Assembly: GCA_030123565.1 (NCBI GenBank)
Contig: CP126122.1
Span: forward strand, 1,189,001-1,253,000
Source: Nitrospira sp.
GTDB lineage: Bacteria; Nitrospirota; Nitrospiria; Nitrospirales; Nitrospiraceae
DNA length: 64,000 bases
Reading direction: 5' to 3'
Part shown: one piece after another, positions 770-9,527 of the stretch
Layout of the letters: every line of letters starts with the position of its first letter
Numbering within the stretch: the first letter of the stretch is position 1
Program-made: the position numbers and the translations under genes
Notes under the pieces: generated by a model
Seen by the model: only the letters and a program-made list of their open reading frames with translations
Databases searched by the model: none
What the model was told of the DNA's origin: nothing

Positions 770-1984
770 GTGAAAGATGAAAGGCAATACACCGTGACGA
801 ACTACCAGTATCTGATCATCGGCGGCGGGATGACCGCAGCCGCCGCGGTGAATGGCATCCGCGAAGTCGATTCGACCGGAGGGATCGGGCTGATCAGCGC
901 GGAACCAGATGCTCCGTACGACCGTCCTCCTCTCTCGAAGGCGCTATGGAAGGGCACACCCTTGGACAACATCTGGCGCAAGACGGAGAGCAACGGGGTG
1001 ACACTTCACCTGGGCCGTACCGTCAAAGAGATTCTTCCCAAGCAGAAACGTGTCGTGGACGACAAGGGAGACGTGTGTACCTACCACAAGCTCTTGTTGG
1101 CTACGGGTGGCCGGTCACGGCATCTTGCATTCGGCGACGACCAGATCATCTACTTCCGTACCTTGGCGGATTATCGGCGTCTTCGTGCCCTTACCGAAAC
1201 GGGTCAGCGGTTTGCCGTGATCGGTGGCGGGTTTATCGGTTCGGAGATTGCTGCGGCGCTGGCTCTGAACGGGAAGGAAGTGGTGATGATCTTCCCCGGC
1301 AAGGATATTGGGGATCGCGTCTTCCCGCGTGCGCTCGCCCAGTTTGTGTCCAACTTCTACATGCAAAAAGGCGTTGAGCTGTTGGCCGGCGAAAACATTG
1401 TCGGCATGGACACACGCGGGCATCAGCGTGTGTTGAAAACAAGTACGAATCGGGAAATCGTGATCGACGGCGTGGTGGCGGGAGTCGGCATCGAGCCCAA
1501 CGTTGAGCTTGCCAAAGCAGCCGGGCTTGCGGTTGAAAATGGAATCATTGTGGACGAGTTCCTCCGCTCCAGTCATTCCGATGTGTATGCAGCAGGAGAC
1601 GTGGCTGAGTTTTACAACCCTGCATTGGGGAAACGCCTCCGAGTCGAACACGAGGACAACGCCAACTCGATGGGACGACTGGTAGGCCGGAACATGGCAG
1701 GCAAGTCTGAACCCTACCATCACCTACCGTTCTTTTACTCCGATCTGTTCGAGTTGGGATACGAAGCCGTGGGCGAAGTGGACTCACGTTTGGAGACGTA
1801 TGCCGACTGGAAGCGCCCCAACGAAGAAGGCGTCGTCTACTACTTACAGAACGATCGCGTGCGAGGTGTGTTGCTGTGGAATGTGTGGGAGCAGGTGGAG
1901 GCCGCCCGCCGACTGATCGCCGAGCCCGGTCCGTTTACACCCAAAGACCTTACAGGACGGTTACCGGCTAAGATTCAAGCCTGA
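770..1984 (+). CDS. FAD/NAD(P)-dependent oxidoreductase, ferredoxin-reductase/AIF-like
   Basis: This is a 404-residue pyridine-nucleotide-disulfide-oxidoreductase fold protein. An FAD dinucleotide-binding GGGMTA motif lies near residues 16-21. A second, NAD-binding GGGFIGSE motif lies near 150. The FAD-closing motif VYAAGDVAEF lies near 270. The C-terminal portion resembles the apoptosis-inducing-factor and rubredoxin/ferredoxin reductase type and has no redox CxxxxC pair. It is expected to pass electrons between NAD(P)H and a small carrier protein; the partner cannot be named from sequence. The start is GTG 770; a second in-frame GTG at 794, just before the first beta strand, is also possible. 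It ends 10 bases before the glycosylase gene, so the two may be cotranscribed. Confidence 0.85.
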   Translation: MKDERQYTVTNYQYLIIGGGMTAAAAVNGIREVDSTGGIGLISAEPDAPYDRPPLSKALWKGTPLDNIWRKTESNGVTLHLGRTVKEILPKQKRVVDDKGDVCTYHKLLLATGGRSRHLAFGDDQIIYFRTLADYRRLRALTETGQRFAVIGGGFIGSEIAAALALNGKEVVMIFPGKDIGDRVFPRALAQFVSNFYMQKGVELLAGENIVGMDTRGHQRVLKTSTNREIVIDGVVAGVGIEPNVELAKAAGLAVENGIIVDEFLRSSHSDVYAAGDVAEFYNPALGKRLRVEHEDNANSMGRLVGRNMAGKSEPYHHLPFFYSDLFELGYEAVGEVDSRLETYADWKRPNEEGVVYYLQNDRVRGVLLWNVWEQVEAARRLIAEPGPFTPKDLTGRLPAKIQA

Positions 1985-1994
1985 AACAGGACTC

Positions 1995-3263
1995 ATGAGA
2001 CCAGACTCGTTTGTGCTGGAGCCCGTATCGCCGTTTCGACTTGACCTCACAGTCTGGACGTTGCGTCGCCGTCCGGACAACGTCGTGGATCGCTGGGACG
2101 GGCAAACCTATCGCCGAGTGTTGCCTGTTCGGGCCGGACTCGTGGAAGTGGCGGTCACACAGGCTGGACCGCCGGAAACGCCTCGGTTGTGCGTGACCGT
2201 AAACCATGCTGCGCTCTGTCCAGAGGTGCAGCAGGAGGTGACGAACACCATAGAACGACTCCTCGGGCTCAGAACCGATGTGACGGCCTTTTATCCCCTC
2301 GCTGCCCGCGATGTCGCGCTTGGTCCATTGGCGCAGCGCTTCCAGGGGATGAAACCGCCGCGGTTCGCCACCGTGTTCGAGAGCGTGATCACGGCGATTG
2401 CCAGCCAGCAAGTGACCAGGACAGTGGGCGTGCTTCTCCTCAACCGTTTGGCTGTGAGCTACGGCACCGCAGTGCAAGTGGGAGAATCTCCTGCATACGC
2501 GTTCCCCAGGGCGGAAGATTTGGCCAGGCTGTATCCGGCCGATCTGCGCCGGCTCGGTTTCAGCCTGCAGAAGGACTGCGCGATCATCGAATTGGCCAGG
2601 TCGATCGCCGCGAAGGCTTTGGACCTGGAGGGACTGGCGGAGCTGCAGGATGAAGAGGCCATTGAGCGTCTCTGCGGCTTGCGAGGCGTGGGCCGCTGGT
2701 CGGCAGAGTATGTGCTCTTGCGCGGTCTGGGAAGGACGCATGTTTTTCCGGGTGATGATGTGGGGGCCCGCAAGAATCTGGAGCGGTGGCTGCACCTCGC
2801 GAAACCGCTCGATTACGCATCCGTTCACCGCACCCTTGAGCGCTGGCGCCCGTACGGCGGGCTGGTCTACTTTCACCTGCTGTTGGATCGACTGGACGAA
2901 GCAGGATTTCTGACGGCAGGAACATTTCAGCCAGACCGGCCGCAGAACCGCGTCGACACAAGGTATTTACAGGAGAACACACCGATGAAGCCTGAATTCA
3001 ACGTGGGAGATCATGTGGAGTGGAACTCGGAAGCAGGCCGCGTTCGCGGAACGGTCAAGGAAAAGGTGGTCTCTGCCATGAAGTTCAAGACCTACACCGT
3101 CCACGCCTCCAAGGAGGAGCCGCAATATTTGATCAAGAGCGACAAGACCGACCACCTGGCCATGCATAAAGGTTGGGCACTCACCAAGATCGGCACAAGC
3201 CAACGCTCGCCTCTCAAGGGGGGAGAAGCCGAAAAGGAAATGAAGCGCCGGAGATTACGATGA
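1995..3263 (+). CDS. AlkA-like DNA glycosylase fused to an HVA1/TUDOR-type (DUF2945) domain
   Basis: The 422-residue frame has two unrelated parts. Residues about 60-310 are a 3-methyladenine-DNA-glycosylase II (HhH-GPD) domain. It has the hairpin GLRGVGRWSAEY near 230 and the PGDDVGARK segment, with the probable catalytic aspartate D255. Residues 331-400 match small stand-alone DUF2945/HVA1 proteins (VGDHVEWNSEAGRVRG, then YLIKSDKTDH). The glycosylase would remove alkylated bases in base-excision repair. The HVA1 domain's role is unknown, though its TUDOR-like fold suggests binding. At residue 331 there is an ATG (2985) with a good Shine-Dalgarno 9 bases upstream, so the second domain may also, or instead, be made separately. 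The arrangement looks like a stop-codon loss between two adjacent genes. Confidence 0.82.
   Translation: MRPDSFVLEPVSPFRLDLTVWTLRRRPDNVVDRWDGQTYRRVLPVRAGLVEVAVTQAGPPETPRLCVTVNHAALCPEVQQEVTNTIERLLGLRTDVTAFYPLAARDVALGPLAQRFQGMKPPRFATVFESVITAIASQQVTRTVGVLLLNRLAVSYGTAVQVGESPAYAFPRAEDLARLYPADLRRLGFSLQKDCAIIELARSIAAKALDLEGLAELQDEEAIERLCGLRGVGRWSAEYVLLRGLGRTHVFPGDDVGARKNLERWLHLAKPLDYASVHRTLERWRPYGGLVYFHLLLDRLDEAGFLTAGTFQPDRPQNRVDTRYLQENTPMKPEFNVGDHVEWNSEAGRVRGTVKEKVVSAMKFKTYTVHASKEEPQYLIKSDKTDHLAMHKGWALTKIGTSQRSPLKGGEAEKEMKRRRLR
2971..2987 (+). promoter_or_regulatory. Internal ribosome binding site and ATG inside the glycosylase-HVA1 frame
   Basis: AGGAG at 2971-2975 stands nine bases before ATG 2985-2987. 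Translation from here would give a 92-residue HVA1-type protein, close to the size of the stand-alone family. It decides whether the upstream frame is a true fusion or two genes that lost the stop between them. Confidence 0.55.
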
Positions 3264-3289: not shown

Positions 3290-3940
3290 ATGCCGAAAGT
3301 AGCCCCTTCGACGATCGTCCTGACGATCGGTCATTCCACCCGGACGATTGAGGAATTCATTGCAATCCTCCAGGCACACGGTGCCACTGGTGTCGTGGAC
3401 GTGCGCACGGTGCCGCGGTCCCGGCACAATCCTCAGTTCAACAAGGCGTCGTTGCCACGCGCATTGAAGAAAGCCGGTTTGAGCTATGTTCACCTGCCTG
3501 GCCTCGGCGGGCTGCGTTACGCTCGGCGCGATTCGGTCAACCTCGGTTGGCGAAACGCATCGTTTCGAGGGTATGCGGATTACATGCAAACGCCTGAATT
3601 TCAAGAGAGCCTCGACGAGCTCATCCAGTTGGTAGAGCACCATCGGCTCGCATTGATGTGCGCCGAAGCGGTTCCCTGGCGCTGTCATCGCTCGCTTATT
3701 GGAGATGCCTTACTGATTCGTGGAATCCGCACGGAGGACATCATGAGCCCTGCAAGGCGCCAGGCTCACATTCTCACCTCCTTTGCAAAGGTCCGCGGGA
3801 CCACGATCACCTATCCGGCTGAAGACGCACAGAGTGCTCAAGCGAACTCGAAGCGAACGCGTTCCGGGTCGCAGTCGGCCAAGGGAACCCGGTCGATCCA
3901 AAAACCGAAGGCGGCCGGTCAGTTGACCAGTCCCTCATGA
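3290..3940 (+). CDS. DUF488 family protein
   Basis: The protein has 216 residues. It starts at ATG 3290 behind a strong GGAGGAGGAG site, 26 bases after the preceding gene. The N-terminus carries the LTIGHSTR strand, then VVDVRTVPRSRHNPQFN, LPGLGG and the cysteine-containing MCAEAVPWRCHR segment near residues 122-135. Together these define the DUF488 fold. The conserved Cys/Glu and Cys-His-Arg suggest a metal or nucleotide site, but no reaction is established for the family. After residue 180 the protein has a Ser/Thr/Lys-rich, low-complexity tail not needed for the fold. DUF488 genes often sit near DNA-repair genes, which agrees with the glycosylase next door; a repair role is inference only. 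Confidence 0.85.
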   Translation: MPKVAPSTIVLTIGHSTRTIEEFIAILQAHGATGVVDVRTVPRSRHNPQFNKASLPRALKKAGLSYVHLPGLGGLRYARRDSVNLGWRNASFRGYADYMQTPEFQESLDELIQLVEHHRLALMCAEAVPWRCHRSLIGDALLIRGIRTEDIMSPARRQAHILTSFAKVRGTTITYPAEDAQSAQANSKRTRSGSQSAKGTRSIQKPKAAGQLTSPS

Positions 3941-4027
3941 CGATTGCCGTCCGGTCGGCCGGGGCGAGTCGAGGATATCCGACGACGAGTCGATGGATGT
4001 TTCATCGGATCCGACAAGGAGAACAGG

Positions 4028-5509
4028 ATGGATCAGGAGACGTTGGGATTTCCGCTTTGGCTTCGCATCAACCATGTCATCAATCTGTTTTGCATTTTTC
4101 TGTTGATGCGGAGCGGTGTGCAGATTCTTGCGGACCATCCGAAGCTCTATTGGAACGATGACACCACGCCGGGGAGCGAATGGATCAAATTCGGAAAGAA
4201 AGTCATGCCGAAGGATCGCCTCTGGACCTCAATGGACGAGGCCGAACACGTCAACTCCGTCGTTGCCCTCCCTGGAGGACATCACAACCTCGGAGCGGCC
4301 AGGAACTGGCATTTCTTGATCGTTCCATTATGGATCATGAACGGCCTCAGTTATGTGACCATGCTCGGTGCGACCGGCGAATGGCGACGACTCATTCCCG
4401 TCAGCTGGACGATTGTCCCTCAAGCCTGGGAGAGTGTCGTGACCTATGCCAGTTTTCAGATCCCGCCGGACAGCGCGTTTCACCCCTATGATCCGCTGCA
4501 ACAGCTCACTTATGCGGCGGTGGTTTTTCTCGTCGCCCCGTTGATGATCCTGACCGGGGTGTGCATGTCTCCGGCGTTCATCGCGCGTTTCCCCTGGTAT
4601 CCGAAACTCTTCGGCGGGCGGCAAGCCGCGCGCAGCCTCCATTTTATCGGATTGATGACTTTAGTGGTCTACACGTTGGTGCACCTCACGCTGGTCGTGG
4701 TGGTGCACTTCCCAGAAGACATCGGCGACATGGTGCTGGGTTCAACCAACCAGAATGTGGCGCTCGCGCTCTGGATCGCCTCGATCGTGTTGATCGGGGT
4801 CGTGCTCTTTCATATCTGGGCCACGGTCTATACGCTGCGCCATCAACGACGATTTCAGGTTCACGCCACTGCGTTCGTCGAACCGCTCATGCGGTTCCTG
4901 TTCGGAGGCCTGCGGTCCCGCCAGCAATACGGCAAAGATCAGATTTCGCCATACTTTCATGTGAATGGGTACCCGCCGGAATCGGAGACCTATACGAAGC
5001 AGGCTGAAGCCCAGTTTACGGAATGGCGAATGACCATCGGCGGGCTGGTGGAACGGCCGCTGGTGTTGTCTCTGGCGGACCTTCGTGCGCTCCCCAAGCA
5101 GGAGCAAATCACGAAGCACAATTGTATTCAGGGATGGTCGGCCGTGGCGGAATGGGGAGGGGTCAGGATGAGCACTATCCTGGACATGTGCAGGCCCCTG
5201 CCGCAGGTGCGGTATGTGGTCTTCCATGCGTTTCCGCAGGCGGAATATGCGCCGCTCACCTATTACGAAATCGTGACGTTGGATGAAGTCCGCGACCCGC
5301 ACACTATTCTGGCCTATGAAATGAATTGGAAACCGCTGCCGATTCCGCATGGAGCCCCCTGCCGCCTGCGCATCGAAATAAAGACGGGATACAAGATGGT
5401 GAAATATCTTCGTGCCATCGAGCTGGTGGACACATTTGCCGGTATCGGGGAAGGACGTGGAGGCTACAGGGAAGACCATCAGTACTATGACAAGGTGGCG
5501 GCGATCTGA
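4028..5509 (+). CDS. Membrane cytochrome b-type domain fused to a sulfite-oxidase-fold molybdopterin domain
   Basis: The protein has 493 residues. The start is ATG 4028 because AAGGAG lies just upstream; an upstream in-frame ATG at 3944 lacks such a site. Residues about 5-290 are a multi-helix membrane domain with several histidines placed as heme ligands (LRINHVINLF near the N-terminus, LHFIGLM and LVHLTLVVVVHF in the middle). This resembles a cytochrome b561/thiosulfate-reductase-type anchor. Residues about 330-480 match the molybdopterin domain of sulfite oxidase/MsrP enzymes (TKHNCIQGWSAVAEWGG, with a cysteine in the position that would coordinate Mo). It probably links quinone-pool electrons to a Mo-catalysed oxidation or reduction; the substrate is unknown. 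No separate maturation gene is nearby. Confidence 0.82.
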   Translation: MDQETLGFPLWLRINHVINLFCIFLLMRSGVQILADHPKLYWNDDTTPGSEWIKFGKKVMPKDRLWTSMDEAEHVNSVVALPGGHHNLGAARNWHFLIVPLWIMNGLSYVTMLGATGEWRRLIPVSWTIVPQAWESVVTYASFQIPPDSAFHPYDPLQQLTYAAVVFLVAPLMILTGVCMSPAFIARFPWYPKLFGGRQAARSLHFIGLMTLVVYTLVHLTLVVVVHFPEDIGDMVLGSTNQNVALALWIASIVLIGVVLFHIWATVYTLRHQRRFQVHATAFVEPLMRFLFGGLRSRQQYGKDQISPYFHVNGYPPESETYTKQAEAQFTEWRMTIGGLVERPLVLSLADLRALPKQEQITKHNCIQGWSAVAEWGGVRMSTILDMCRPLPQVRYVVFHAFPQAEYAPLTYYEIVTLDEVRDPHTILAYEMNWKPLPIPHGAPCRLRIEIKTGYKMVKYLRAIELVDTFAGIGEGRGGYREDHQYYDKVAAI

Positions 5510-5601
5510 TGCCCTGTCTCGCGTTGGTGTGAGGCCGGACCAGACCCGCTGATCGAATATATGGTGAACGTCACAACAGAAGACACGAAGGAGAGACGAG
5601 A

Positions 5602-6723
5602 ATGAAGGCCAATCCCTTGAAGACATTGGAGACATTCGGTCAATCAGTCTGGTTGGACTACATCCGACGCGATTTGATCACCGGCGGGCAGCTGCGGCGG
5701 CTGATTGAGGAAGACGGCCTGCGGGGAATGACCTCGAATCCTGCTATTTTCGAGAAGGCGATCGTGGGGAGCCATGAGTATGACGAGGACATTCGCGCCA
5801 TGGCCCGTCAGGGGCGAAAGGTGGACGCCATCTATGAAGCGCTCAGCCAGCGAGATGTGCAGGGCGCCGCAGATGTGTTCCGACCGGTATACGACGAGAC
5901 CGACGGGAAGGACGGCTATGTCAGCTTGGAGGTAAGTCCCCATCTGGCGCATGACACCAAAGGCACGGTGGAAGAGGCGCGCCGACTGTGGAAGGCGCTG
6001 GCCCGGCCCAACGTCTTCATCAAGGTTCCTGCCACGAGCGAGGGGCTGCCTGCCATCCAAGAACTCATCAGCGAAGGCATCAACGTCAACGTGACATTGC
6101 TGTTTGGGTTGCCGCGGTATCGCCAGGTGGCGGAGGCGTACCTCGCCGGTCTCGCCGCGCGGGCCGCGCGCGGGAAGCCCCTGAAGCCGGTGGCCTCGGT
6201 GGCCAGTTTCTTTGTCAGCCGTATCGACAGCTTGGTGGATCCCGTGCTGGATCACATCATCCAACAAGGCGGTGGGCAGGCGGCGCTTGCGAAGGCCCTG
6301 CGCGGGCAGGTCGCCGTCGCTAATGCGAAGGCGGCGTACCAACTCTACAAGGAGATCTTCGGCAGCGGTCGGTTTAGAACATTGGCCGATCAGGGGGCTC
6401 GTGTCCAGCGTCTGCTCTGGGCCAGCACCAGTACGAAGAGCCAGGGTGAGAGCGATGTGAAATACGTGGAGGCCCTCATCGGCCCGGACACGGTCAATAC
6501 AGTGCCCCTTCAGACGCTTGAGGCCTATCGCGACCACGGCGATCCGAAGGCTCGCCTCGAACAACATGTCCAGGAAGCCCGCCTTCTATTGGAGCGGTTG
6601 CCCGAAGTCGGCATCAACCTCGACCAGGTGACACAGCAACTAGAGGACGACGGTGTTGAGAAGTTCAACAAGCTCTTCGACAAACTGTTGCAGACCTTGG
6701 CAAGCACGTCGTCTCACAGGTGA
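5602..6723 (+). CDS. tal: Transaldolase
   Basis: The protein has 373 residues, the long form found in actinobacteria, cyanobacteria and Nitrospira. The start is ATG 5602 behind GGAGAG. The N-terminus reads LETFGQSVWLDYIRRD, followed by the GMTSNPAIFEKAI motif near residues 47-59. The Schiff-base lysine lies in NVFIKVPATSEG (about K141). SVASFFVSRID near residue 200 and LLWASTSTKS near 275 complete the active-site barrel. It exchanges a dihydroxyacetone unit between sedoheptulose-7-phosphate and glyceraldehyde-3-phosphate in the cytosol, complementing the transketolase at the start of the window. The gap upstream is about 90 bases, so it may have its own promoter. Confidence 0.95.
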   Translation: MKANPLKTLETFGQSVWLDYIRRDLITGGQLRRLIEEDGLRGMTSNPAIFEKAIVGSHEYDEDIRAMARQGRKVDAIYEALSQRDVQGAADVFRPVYDETDGKDGYVSLEVSPHLAHDTKGTVEEARRLWKALARPNVFIKVPATSEGLPAIQELISEGINVNVTLLFGLPRYRQVAEAYLAGLAARAARGKPLKPVASVASFFVSRIDSLVDPVLDHIIQQGGGQAALAKALRGQVAVANAKAAYQLYKEIFGSGRFRTLADQGARVQRLLWASTSTKSQGESDVKYVEALIGPDTVNTVPLQTLEAYRDHGDPKARLEQHVQEARLLLERLPEVGINLDQVTQQLEDDGVEKFNKLFDKLLQTLASTSSHR

Positions 6724-6980
6724 GGAGCTGTGAACATACGTCACCGCGAAGTGAGTCGGACACCCTACGAGGGGCTGAGCAGCTTCAACACCACGGATCA
6801 AAAGGCACTACGGGCGAAACTCTCACCGCAACAGGTTCCGCGTACCGAGCAGGGACGAGCCGATCGATAAGATTTATGCGGAGAGCTTTTGTGGCACGGA
6901 CCATCTATGCCACGTTCTGAAAGAAGCAGAAGCGATGGTCAACGTGGCGATGGAGGGATCGCACAACTGAAGGAGAAATC

Positions 6981-9527
6981 GTGAGTATAGACAGGGCTGA
7001 CGACAACCCCCTCTCCAGGCATGCACAGAGGGAGGTCGAAGGATTCGAGTGCCTGGCTGAGTTGGCCTTGGATCTGCGTTCGTGCTGGAACCATGGCGCC
7101 GATGACGTATGGCGGCAGCTGGATCCCATGTTGTGGGAATGTACACACAACCCCTGGGTCGTCCTGCAAGCGGTGTCCCGAGACCGGTTGCGGCGGATGT
7201 CGGCCGATCCCGCCTTCCGCAAGCAGGTCGAGACGCTCGTGCAAGCGAGGCGACACGCGGCGAACGCTTCTGCGTGGTTTCAGGCCGCCCACCCACAATC
7301 GCCTCTGACCTGCGTGGCCTATTTCAGCATGGAATTCATGTTGAGCGAAGCGTTACCCATTTATTCTGGCGGACTGGGCAATGTGGCTGGTGATCAGCTC
7401 AAAGCCGCCAGCGATCTGGGCGTGCCCGTGGTCGGCGTGGGGCTGCTCTACCAGCAAGGCTATTTTCGGCAGATGATCGATAAGGACGGCGCGCAACAGG
7501 CGCTCTTTCCTTACAACGATCCCGGGCAATTGCCGATCTCGCCGTTGCGCCAGGCGAACGGCGAGTGGTTGCGATTGGAGATCGCGCTGCCCGGTTACTC
7601 GATTTGGCTGCGCGCCTGGGAGGTCCAGGTCGGTCGAGTACGGCTGTATCTGCTGGACAGCAATGATGCGGCGAATTTCCCGGCTCACCGAGGCATTACC
7701 AGCGAGCTGTACGGAGGCGGGCCGGAGTTGCGGCTGAAACAAGAATTGCTGCTCGGCCTCGGGGGCTGGCGGCTGCTGGAGGCACTGAATCTCCGACCGG
7801 AAGTCTGCCATCTGAATGAGGGTCATGCCGCCTTTGCCATATTGGAACGCGCCCGCAGTTTCATGGAGGCCTCCGGGCACCCCTTCGACGTCGCATTGGC
7901 CGCCACGCGAGCAGGGAACCTCTTCACCACGCATACGGCGGTGGCCGCCGGTTTTGATCGGTTCGCTCCGGCGCTCATCGAGCAATACCTCGGTCGGTAT
8001 GCCAAGAACCAGCTCGCCATTCCCCTGCGCGACTTGCTGGCACTGGGCCGCCAGAATCCGAACGACGCGTCGGAACCATTCAACATGGCCTATTTGGCGA
8101 TCCGAGGGAGCGGGGCGGTCAATGGTGTGAGTCGTGTGCATGGACAGGTGAGCCGCCGTCTCTTTCGCGCTCTTTTTCGCCGCTGGCCGGAAGCCGCCGT
8201 GCCTGTCCGGCATGTGACCAACGGAGTCCATATGCCGAGCTGGGACTCTGCAGCAGCCGACGCACTGTGGACGGAATTCTGCGGAAAGAACCGCTGGCTG
8301 GGCACGATGGAATGTCTGGAGGCGGCGATTCGCGGAATCCCGGAGGCTCGACTGTGGCAATTCCGCAATGCCGCCCGCAATGCCCTCATCAGCTATGCCC
8401 GCGAACGATTGTCTCGCCAATTGGCGGCCTCCGGGGCGTCGCCTGCGGACTTGGAGAGGGTTAGGCAGATGTTTGATCCCGACGCGTTGACGCTGGGTTT
8501 TGCTCGTCGCTTCGCCACCTATAAGCGTCCCAATCTGTTGCTGCACCAGCCGGAGCGGCTCCATCGTTTGTTGACAGATTCCCAGCGCCCGGTACAGCTC
8601 ATCATGGCTGGCAAGGCCCACCCCGCAGACCAGGCCGGGCAGGCCTTGATTCAAGAATGGATCCAGTTTATCCGGCGGCCCGAGACGCGTCCCCATGTGA
8701 TCTACCTCAGTGACTACGACATGGTGCTGGCCGAACAGCTGGTGCAGGGGGTGGATGTCTGGATCAACACGCCACGGCGACCGTGGGAGGCCAGCGGCAC
8801 AAGCGGCATGAAAGTGTTGGTCAATGGCGGTCTCAATCTGTCGGAGTTGGATGGGTGGTGGGCCGAAGCCTATCACCCCGATGTGGGGTGGGCATTAGGC
8901 GATGGCCGGGACCATGGGGACGATCTCGCATGGGACGCGATCGAAGCCGATGCCCTCTACGACCTGCTCGAACGCGAGGTGATCCCGGAATTTTATCGCC
9001 GCGACGAGCACGGCGTTCCCACCGGTTGGGTCAACCGAATACGGGAGAGCATGGCACGGTTGACACCCAGGTTTTCGACGAACCGTGTCGTGCGGGAATA
9101 TACCGAGCAACATTACCTTCCGGCTGCAGCCGCCTACCGTGAGCGCACGGCCGAGAAGGGGGGCGTGGGCAAGCGCCTTGCCGAGTGGAAGCAGATCTTG
9201 AACGAGAAATGGCTCGGGCTGCGCTTCGGCGACGTGAAGGTACAGACCACTGTCGCACAGCATATCTTTGAGGCAGAAGTGTATTTCAATAACCTCGATC
9301 CGGACGCCGTGCGGGTTGAGTTGTATGCCGATGGGATCAACGGCAGCAGTCCGATCCGGGAGGAGATGACGCGTGTTCGCCGACTGGCCAGCGAATCAGG
9401 GGGGGCGATCTATCGCGCATCGGTCTCGGCAGCCCGTTTCGCAACGGACTATACGGTGCGCGTCATCCCGTACCATGCCGGTGTGGCGGTGCCCCTCGAA
9501 GTCGATCTCATTCTCTGGCAGCGGTGA
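6981..9527 (+). CDS. glgP: Glycogen/alpha-glucan phosphorylase
   Basis: The protein has 848 residues and starts at GTG 6981 with AAGGAG 6-11 bases upstream. It is of the bacterial/archaeal alpha-glucan phosphorylase type (glycosyltransferase family 35), with an N-terminal DUF3417-like region. Visible landmarks are YFSMEFMLSEALPIYSGGLG near residue 115, CHLNEGHAAFA near 277, GFARRFATYKR near 510 and the PLP-lysine region EASGTSGMKVLVNGG near 605. It releases glucose-1-phosphate from alpha-1,4-glucan using phosphate. Its stop overlaps an in-frame GTG of the debranching gene by four bases, so the pair is translationally close and acts in one pathway. The last 130 residues are a beta-rich extension commonly seen in this subgroup. 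Confidence 0.94.
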   Translation: MSIDRADDNPLSRHAQREVEGFECLAELALDLRSCWNHGADDVWRQLDPMLWECTHNPWVVLQAVSRDRLRRMSADPAFRKQVETLVQARRHAANASAWFQAAHPQSPLTCVAYFSMEFMLSEALPIYSGGLGNVAGDQLKAASDLGVPVVGVGLLYQQGYFRQMIDKDGAQQALFPYNDPGQLPISPLRQANGEWLRLEIALPGYSIWLRAWEVQVGRVRLYLLDSNDAANFPAHRGITSELYGGGPELRLKQELLLGLGGWRLLEALNLRPEVCHLNEGHAAFAILERARSFMEASGHPFDVALAATRAGNLFTTHTAVAAGFDRFAPALIEQYLGRYAKNQLAIPLRDLLALGRQNPNDASEPFNMAYLAIRGSGAVNGVSRVHGQVSRRLFRALFRRWPEAAVPVRHVTNGVHMPSWDSAAADALWTEFCGKNRWLGTMECLEAAIRGIPEARLWQFRNAARNALISYARERLSRQLAASGASPADLERVRQMFDPDALTLGFARRFATYKRPNLLLHQPERLHRLLTDSQRPVQLIMAGKAHPADQAGQALIQEWIQFIRRPETRPHVIYLSDYDMVLAEQLVQGVDVWINTPRRPWEASGTSGMKVLVNGGLNLSELDGWWAEAYHPDVGWALGDGRDHGDDLAWDAIEADALYDLLEREVIPEFYRRDEHGVPTGWVNRIRESMARLTPRFSTNRVVREYTEQHYLPAAAAYRERTAEKGGVGKRLAEWKQILNEKWLGLRFGDVKVQTTVAQHIFEAEVYFNNLDPDAVRVELYADGINGSSPIREEMTRVRRLASESGGAIYRASVSAARFATDYTVRVIPYHAGVAVPLEVDLILWQR

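Follow-up and report, generated by a model that had tools for sequence, protein, structure and literature searches.

In the window, the 64,000-nt stretch of a Nitrospira sp. genome analysed here, a glycosylase gene and an Hva1_TUDOR gene share one reading frame. They probably represent a conserved operon pair that was brought into this common frame by a small change of length at the junction, and from which both a fusion protein and free Hva1 would be made. The proposed course of events starts from an operon of tightly packed and probably translationally coupled genes for an FAD oxidoreductase, the glycosylase, Hva1 and a DUF488 protein, in which the glycosylase and Hva1 cistrons would have been joined in frame via an indel or via exchange with a paralogous Hva1 gene. 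Ribosomes starting at 1995 would then yield a glycosylase-linker-Tudor fusion of 422 aa, and those starting at 2985 the free Hva1 of 92 aa; the glycosylase domain would remove damaged bases in the manner of AlkA, and Hva1 would act as a small Tudor-like adaptor. The features concerned are the following:

770..1984, +, AIF-like NAD(P)/FAD oxidoreductase, conserved neighbour on the 5' side of the glycosylase (Pfam Pyr_redox_2 and AIF_C)
1995..2912, +, AlkA-type HhH-GPD glycosylase domain, residues 1-306 (Pfam, predicted model and structure alignment)
2913..2984, +, linker of 24 codons, predicted to be disordered (pLDDT <50 at residues 303-330; junction alignment)
2971..2975, +, AGGAG, candidate ribosome-binding site 9 nt upstream of the internal ATG at 2985
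2985..2988, +, ATGA, the Hva1 start; read in another frame, its TGA is the glycosylase stop of the closest orthologue
2985..3263, +, Hva1_TUDOR cistron beginning at an ATG of its own and encoding a free 92-aa protein or the C-terminal domain of the fusion
3290..3940, +, DUF488 protein, downstream gene, which at other loci follows the glycosylase immediately or forms an in-frame fusion with Hva1

Reading frame, domains and internal start

The first-pass annotation had described one open frame with a glycosylase followed by Hva1_TUDOR, and this description was borne out: 1995-3263 (+) is a single open frame of 422 aa devoid of internal stop codons, and both domains are recognized by Pfam. HhH-GPD (PF00730) was detected at residues 133-285 with 38.4 bits (cut-off 26.2), and Hva1_TUDOR (PF11160) at residues 338-393 with 62.1-65.9 bits (cut-off 24.1), spanning profile positions 1-57 of 59. 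AlkA_N stayed under its Pfam cut-off in the fused ORF (22.6 vs 26), and the two NCBIfam matches, PRK10308 (AlkA) and ogg, did not reach theirs, the PRK10308 AlkA equivalog profile scoring 86.4 bits vs a curated cut-off of 229. Judged from its sequence, the glycosylase domain is AlkA-like and not an AlkA equivalog.

Archaeal AlkA and E. coli AlkA are the solved structures closest in sequence to the glycosylase part. In the alignment to solved AlkA, residues D255 and W235 correspond to D238, the catalytic Asp, and W218 of the E. coli enzyme. The predicted model of the window protein consists of two domains with a disordered linker between them, and its best fold match in the PDB is A. fulgidus AlkA (2jhj, TM 0.82 by target length). 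The model was built on an alignment (A1) mixing glycosylase-only with Hva1-only rows, which are the probable cause of its low confidence at residues 252-271, 285-289 and nearby; because of the low confidence in these two segments, the active-site assignment rests on the structure-sequence alignment (D255/W235) and not on the model. AlkA (E. coli 1diz/1mpg; A. fulgidus 2jhj) and the window protein have the same fold, the HhH-GPD domain and the W218/D238 equivalents in common, whereas the latter adds a C-terminal linker and a Tudor domain and is only 24-27% identical to the AlkA entries in structure alignments. A sequence comparison of the Hva1 part with solved structures yielded no match at E 1.

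The internal start reported for the junction is likewise present, with AGGAG at 2971-2975 and an in-frame ATG at 2985 from which a 92-aa product would be translated. Anti-SD pairing at this site amounts to -7.4 kcal/mol and is equalled or surpassed at 7 of 119 other in-frame internal ATGs of 18 window ORFs, which are mechanical ORFs and not curated genes. A correctly spaced AGGAG or GGAGG precedes 2 of these 119 internal ATGs vs 5 of the 18 ORF starts, and a looser SD motif 18 vs 10, respectively. By itself, the site is modestly informative, being a coincidence at 2-6%, and its SD strength alone is not exceptional. It exceeds chance because the start, usually together with an SD-like motif, is kept in orthologues across all three relative frames.

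A similar leader is found at many Hva1 genes located at unrelated loci of several phyla (e.g., L073, L091, L084, L107 and L092). In many cases, an in-frame stop shortly 5' of the aligned start confines the Hva1 start to that ATG or its close surroundings. In the same leader comparison, several Hva1 loci had no SD-like motif and some had no ATG at the aligned position. The Hva1 start of the closest orthologue carries AGGGA instead of AGGAG, and a standalone Hva1 paralogue in the window genome has no evident SD.

Since the glycosylase has no other stop, the fusion should be made, and since the Hva1 start persists through all three relative frames, free Hva1 is very probably made as well. On these two grounds we infer, in agreement with the earlier suggestion that the same DNA yields a fusion and a free 92-residue protein, that both products are probably formed.

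Dual-product genes are already known. Passages of PMC9123187 describe an internally translated small subunit for Cas10d/Cas11d and other CRISPR large subunits (McBride 2020), and such small subunits for about 23% of known CRISPR systems. As portrayed there, Cas10d/Cas11d resembles the window gene in being one in-frame gene whose C-terminal part is also obtained free by internal translation; the CRISPR small subunit is, however, built into the same complex, whereas Hva1 is not known to be part of one, and in most of the relatives examined the two genes stand apart or in different frames. In the titles and abstract beginnings of the papers listed for DUF2945/Hva1, DUF488, glycosylase-Tudor proteins and internal initiation with fusion, the present fusion architectures were not found described, and DUF2945 occurred in a single paper of the library searched, the Pfam renaming note.

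The junction in relatives

Among the closest glycosylase-Hva1 pairs (glycosylase identity 66-82%), every arrangement of the two genes is represented. A spacer of 72 nt places glycosylase and Hva1 in frame in the window. In Nitrospira sp. palsa_1310 (genome G136; loci L037 and L055 on the same contig), which belongs to the family of the window's genome, the spacer of 71 nt is one base shorter and the genes are out of frame with a 4-nt ATGA overlap. The glycosylase terminates there at the TGA within ATGA. These four letters are also present in the window, where the TGA lies in a frame other than that of the glycosylase. L057 (labelled Phycisphaerales) has a spacer of 82 nt and an 11-nt overlap, while the two genes of L056 are separate (250 nt), its glycosylase containing one in-frame stop. 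L054, from a MAG labelled Bacteroidota, is again an in-frame fusion with a different spacer of 75 nt; organism labels of MAG contigs (e.g., L054 and L062) may be wrong. Altogether, the in-frame state occurs in two of five close members of the glycosylase branch, the window counted, and most close orthologues have an out-of-frame overlap or a spacer in place of the linker between the domains. Legionella and other proteobacterial loci (8 examples) possess separate genes 20-31 nt apart. The genes of L095 look damaged. The pair thus provides a natural series from separate genes via 4-nt and 11-nt overlaps to an in-frame fusion, which lets one ask how overlapping genes become fusions while the second start survives.

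Loss of a stop codon, one of the two readings offered by the first-pass annotation, is not what the junctions suggest: relatives differ by spacer length and hence by frame, the closest orthologue being one base shorter, and loss by substitution was rejected as the main route. Overlapping, ATGA-coupled genes are a known class within operons. L055 conforms to it with ATGA at both junctions, the FAD oxidoreductase overlapping the glycosylase in this manner in L054 and L055; unlike such genes, the window's two frames coincide and termination of the first gene is lost. The flanks of L055 are those of the window (FAD oxidoreductase before, DUF488 after), and much of the operon is also common to L054. 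Two genes with identical flanks had been expected to speak against a fusion and do exist in L055, yet the fusion is not thereby unreal, as L054 is also fused. The fused state of the window appears to be lineage-specific or, less probably, a one-base error.

In the glycosylase tree, the window groups with L052 (= L037; 89/72), followed by L056, then L054 and then L057; the two fused copies (window and L054) are set apart by an overlapping and a separate copy. In the Hva1 tree, built on no more than 72 columns, the window clusters with its own paralogue, and L054 (row L151) clusters with L073 (row L168). Since the two fused copies stand apart in both trees, the genes probably came into frame on two occasions or have moved in and out of it. 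The Hva1 DNA of the window is 88% identical to this own-genome paralogue, which sits immediately behind a transketolase gene, and the similarity extends from 6 nt upstream of the ATG onward. Exchange of the Hva1 part between paralogues, and not an indel alone, may have set the junction, and the window's Hva1 need not be a simple orthologue of that in L037.

Two further arrangements were observed. On the L057 contig, Hva1 is flanked by two glycosylase copies of this branch, one on each side (the second at L177:511-1452). At L078:5001-5521, a glycosylase matching residues 1-88 only runs via ATGA directly into Hva1, which suggests that a deletion brought Hva1 up.

Fusions of Hva1 and competing readings

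Hva1 genes were collected from a pattern-based scan of genome contigs (best 80 of 85), from whole groups or drawn genome samples, and from stretches by place. Matches beginning past query residue 10 were dropped, near-identical copies were merged, and an upstream partner was counted up to a distance of 400 nt. Overall, 101 non-redundant Hva1 genes were classified, a census of the gathered loci rather than of all existing genes, in which best matches are favoured. Ten are in-frame fusions, 2 to glycosylases and 8 to DUF488. A glycosylase lies directly upstream of 14 Hva1 genes (2 fused, 3 overlapping, 9 separate) and DUF488 upstream of another 14 (8 fused, 1 overlapping, 5 separate), while 73 have neither within 400 nt. 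The initial characterization of Hva1 as a domain normally encoded alone agrees with most copies examined, but not with the 8 further Hva1 genes fused in frame to DUF488. Four of the eight DUF488 fusions were scanned with Pfam (L100, L094, L103 and L109), and both domains were found in all four as well as in L054. An SD-like motif (in the loose sense of AGGAG, GGAGG, GGAG, AGGA or GAGG) combined with ATG or GTG stands at the junction of 9 of the 10 fusions; for comparison, the motif precedes 18 of the window's 119 other internal ATGs. The only fusion without it is L109 (DUF488-Hva1), which begins at the edge of its contig; the weakest member is L212, having ambiguous bases at two places and losing the Hva1 frame after the second. 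As a candidate fusion with another partner, L085 was rejected: Hva1 ends a 371-aa open frame there, the sole Pfam match is Hva1, and the frame is read as spurious.

Seven of the eight DUF488 fusions fall into one cross-phylum DUF488 clade of nine members (L109 belongs to another), labelled Planctomycetota (L094, L107), Vicinamibacteria (L103) and Aminicenantes (L100), the other three being of the class of L107. Of the remaining two clade members, L213 lacks Hva1 and L186 has it 291 nt away; wherever the distance to Hva1 is at most 60 nt, as in the seven, the two genes share one frame. Their linkers measure 15-17 codons, and upon linker shuffling all seven stay open in 1.7% of trials, a value that is partly circular since open linkers define a fusion. 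Substitutions in these linkers display no codon-position bias (0.62/0.55/0.57), conservation of the linker peptide was not seen, and the linker is disordered in the L107 model, too. Among the DUF488-Hva1 fusions, the reading frame seems to be retained but not the peptide of the linker, and the fusion looks maintained; among the glycosylase copies, selection on the frame itself is not apparent.

These data bear on a possible, albeit rather doubtful, alternative to the two-product operon pair, namely that the fusion is selected as such: the covalently attached Tudor domain would recruit the glycosylase to a partner, and the proportion of fused to free protein would be set by the internal start. 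It would agree with the in-frame counts (2 of 14 with glycosylases, 8 of 14 with DUF488, nearly always with an internal start) and with the DUF488 clade, seven out of seven in frame with linkers of similar length and 1.7% in the shuffle test; that test, however, is partly circular, the seven fusions share ancestry, linker bases lack codon-position bias, and only two of five close members of the glycosylase branch are in frame. Structure predictions point in a similar direction. The Hva1 part of the L107 model is nearest to Hva1 of Cryptococcus neoformans (4p5n; top fold match, E 0.021; no sequence match at E 1) and resembles the C-terminal Tudor domain of PcrA/UvrD (5dma; weak fold match, E 0.046; no sequence match to solved structures), a Tudor-like domain likewise situated at the C-terminus of a DNA-repair protein, but none of these weak matches attains E 0.001 or better. 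The PcrA/UvrD Tudor domain is described in PMC5397179 and PMC7585439 as binding RNA polymerase. Cryptococcus Hva1 is the source of the Pfam name (PMC6324024); it is a small protein of this fungus for which a link to NADPH metabolism is reported (PMC5008624). A more far-reaching version, in which Hva1 would be a mobile Tudor-like tag with its own ribosome site, repeatedly and adaptively fused to enzymes of a single neighbourhood (glycosylase and DUF488) and tethering them to a common partner (e.g., RNA polymerase) in competition with a free pool sustained by internal initiation, seems unlikely.

An indel error is an improbable explanation; the true spacer would differ by one base, with an ordinary ATGA overlap as in L055 and no fusion at this locus. 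The single base of spacer that separates the window from L037/L055, the same ATGA letters in both and the non-conserved frame of the glycosylase branch would accord with such an error. On the other hand, the longest single-base run in the spacer is 3, the independent assembly L054 is likewise fused with another spacer, and the window genome is one contig, 100% complete, that also contains a gapless 5,526-nt duplicate of nearby DNA at 99.77% identity, which does not extend to the junction itself. If one base were wrong here, the fusion at the window locus would disappear, but the recurrent pattern elsewhere would stand. Production of the fusion only, with the internal ATG and AGGAG as mere relics, is very improbable: the junction of L109 is indeed without any internal start, but 9 of 10 fusions retain the site, and the AGGAG kept in L107 does not share the codon register of that in L094, L103 and L210, which fits selection on a DNA signal and not on the peptide.

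Gene neighbourhood of Hva1

Adjacency of glycosylase and DUF488 genes without intervening Hva1 is common among the loci examined and also applies to the glycosylase paralogue of the window genome (54-55% identical). The DUF488 gene behind this paralogue (L036:5250-5636) has an early end and matches split over two frames, giving the appearance of a frameshifted or truncated gene. Other genes preceding Hva1 encode transketolase, acetate kinase, fructose-bisphosphate aldolase and ribose-5-phosphate isomerase B, as well as a relative of the FAD oxidoreductase, a HAD hydrolase, a QueC-like protein and a glycosyltransferase. At L080, L075, L082, L086, L091 and L092, representing several phyla, Hva1 is positioned behind mostly sugar-phosphate and related genes, in some cases at 9-20 nt or via ATGA. 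In these positions, Hva1 resembles a mobile 3' appendage. The shared neighbourhood of the uncharacterised bacterial Hva1 (formerly DUF2945) and DUF488 with a base-excision glycosylase offers a testable functional lead.

A phage origin was rejected, as no relative was detected in one scan of viral contigs, and so were plasmid copies, as no plasmid place covered 80% of the fusion. An Acidithiobacillus plasmid carries glycosylase and Hva1 genes about 850 nt apart on opposite strands.

The duplicate mentioned above comprises window positions 4002-9527, which match G000:C1 at about 1430487-1436012 without gaps and represent a recent segmental duplication. The segment harbours genes for a Mo-cytochrome b oxidoreductase, a transaldolase and a phosphorylase, and begins just after DUF488 here and after a standalone Hva1 there. 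At L213, where DUF488 of the fused clade is present without Hva1, the gene immediately behind it is related to the Mo-cytochrome b oxidoreductase of the window (43% identity).
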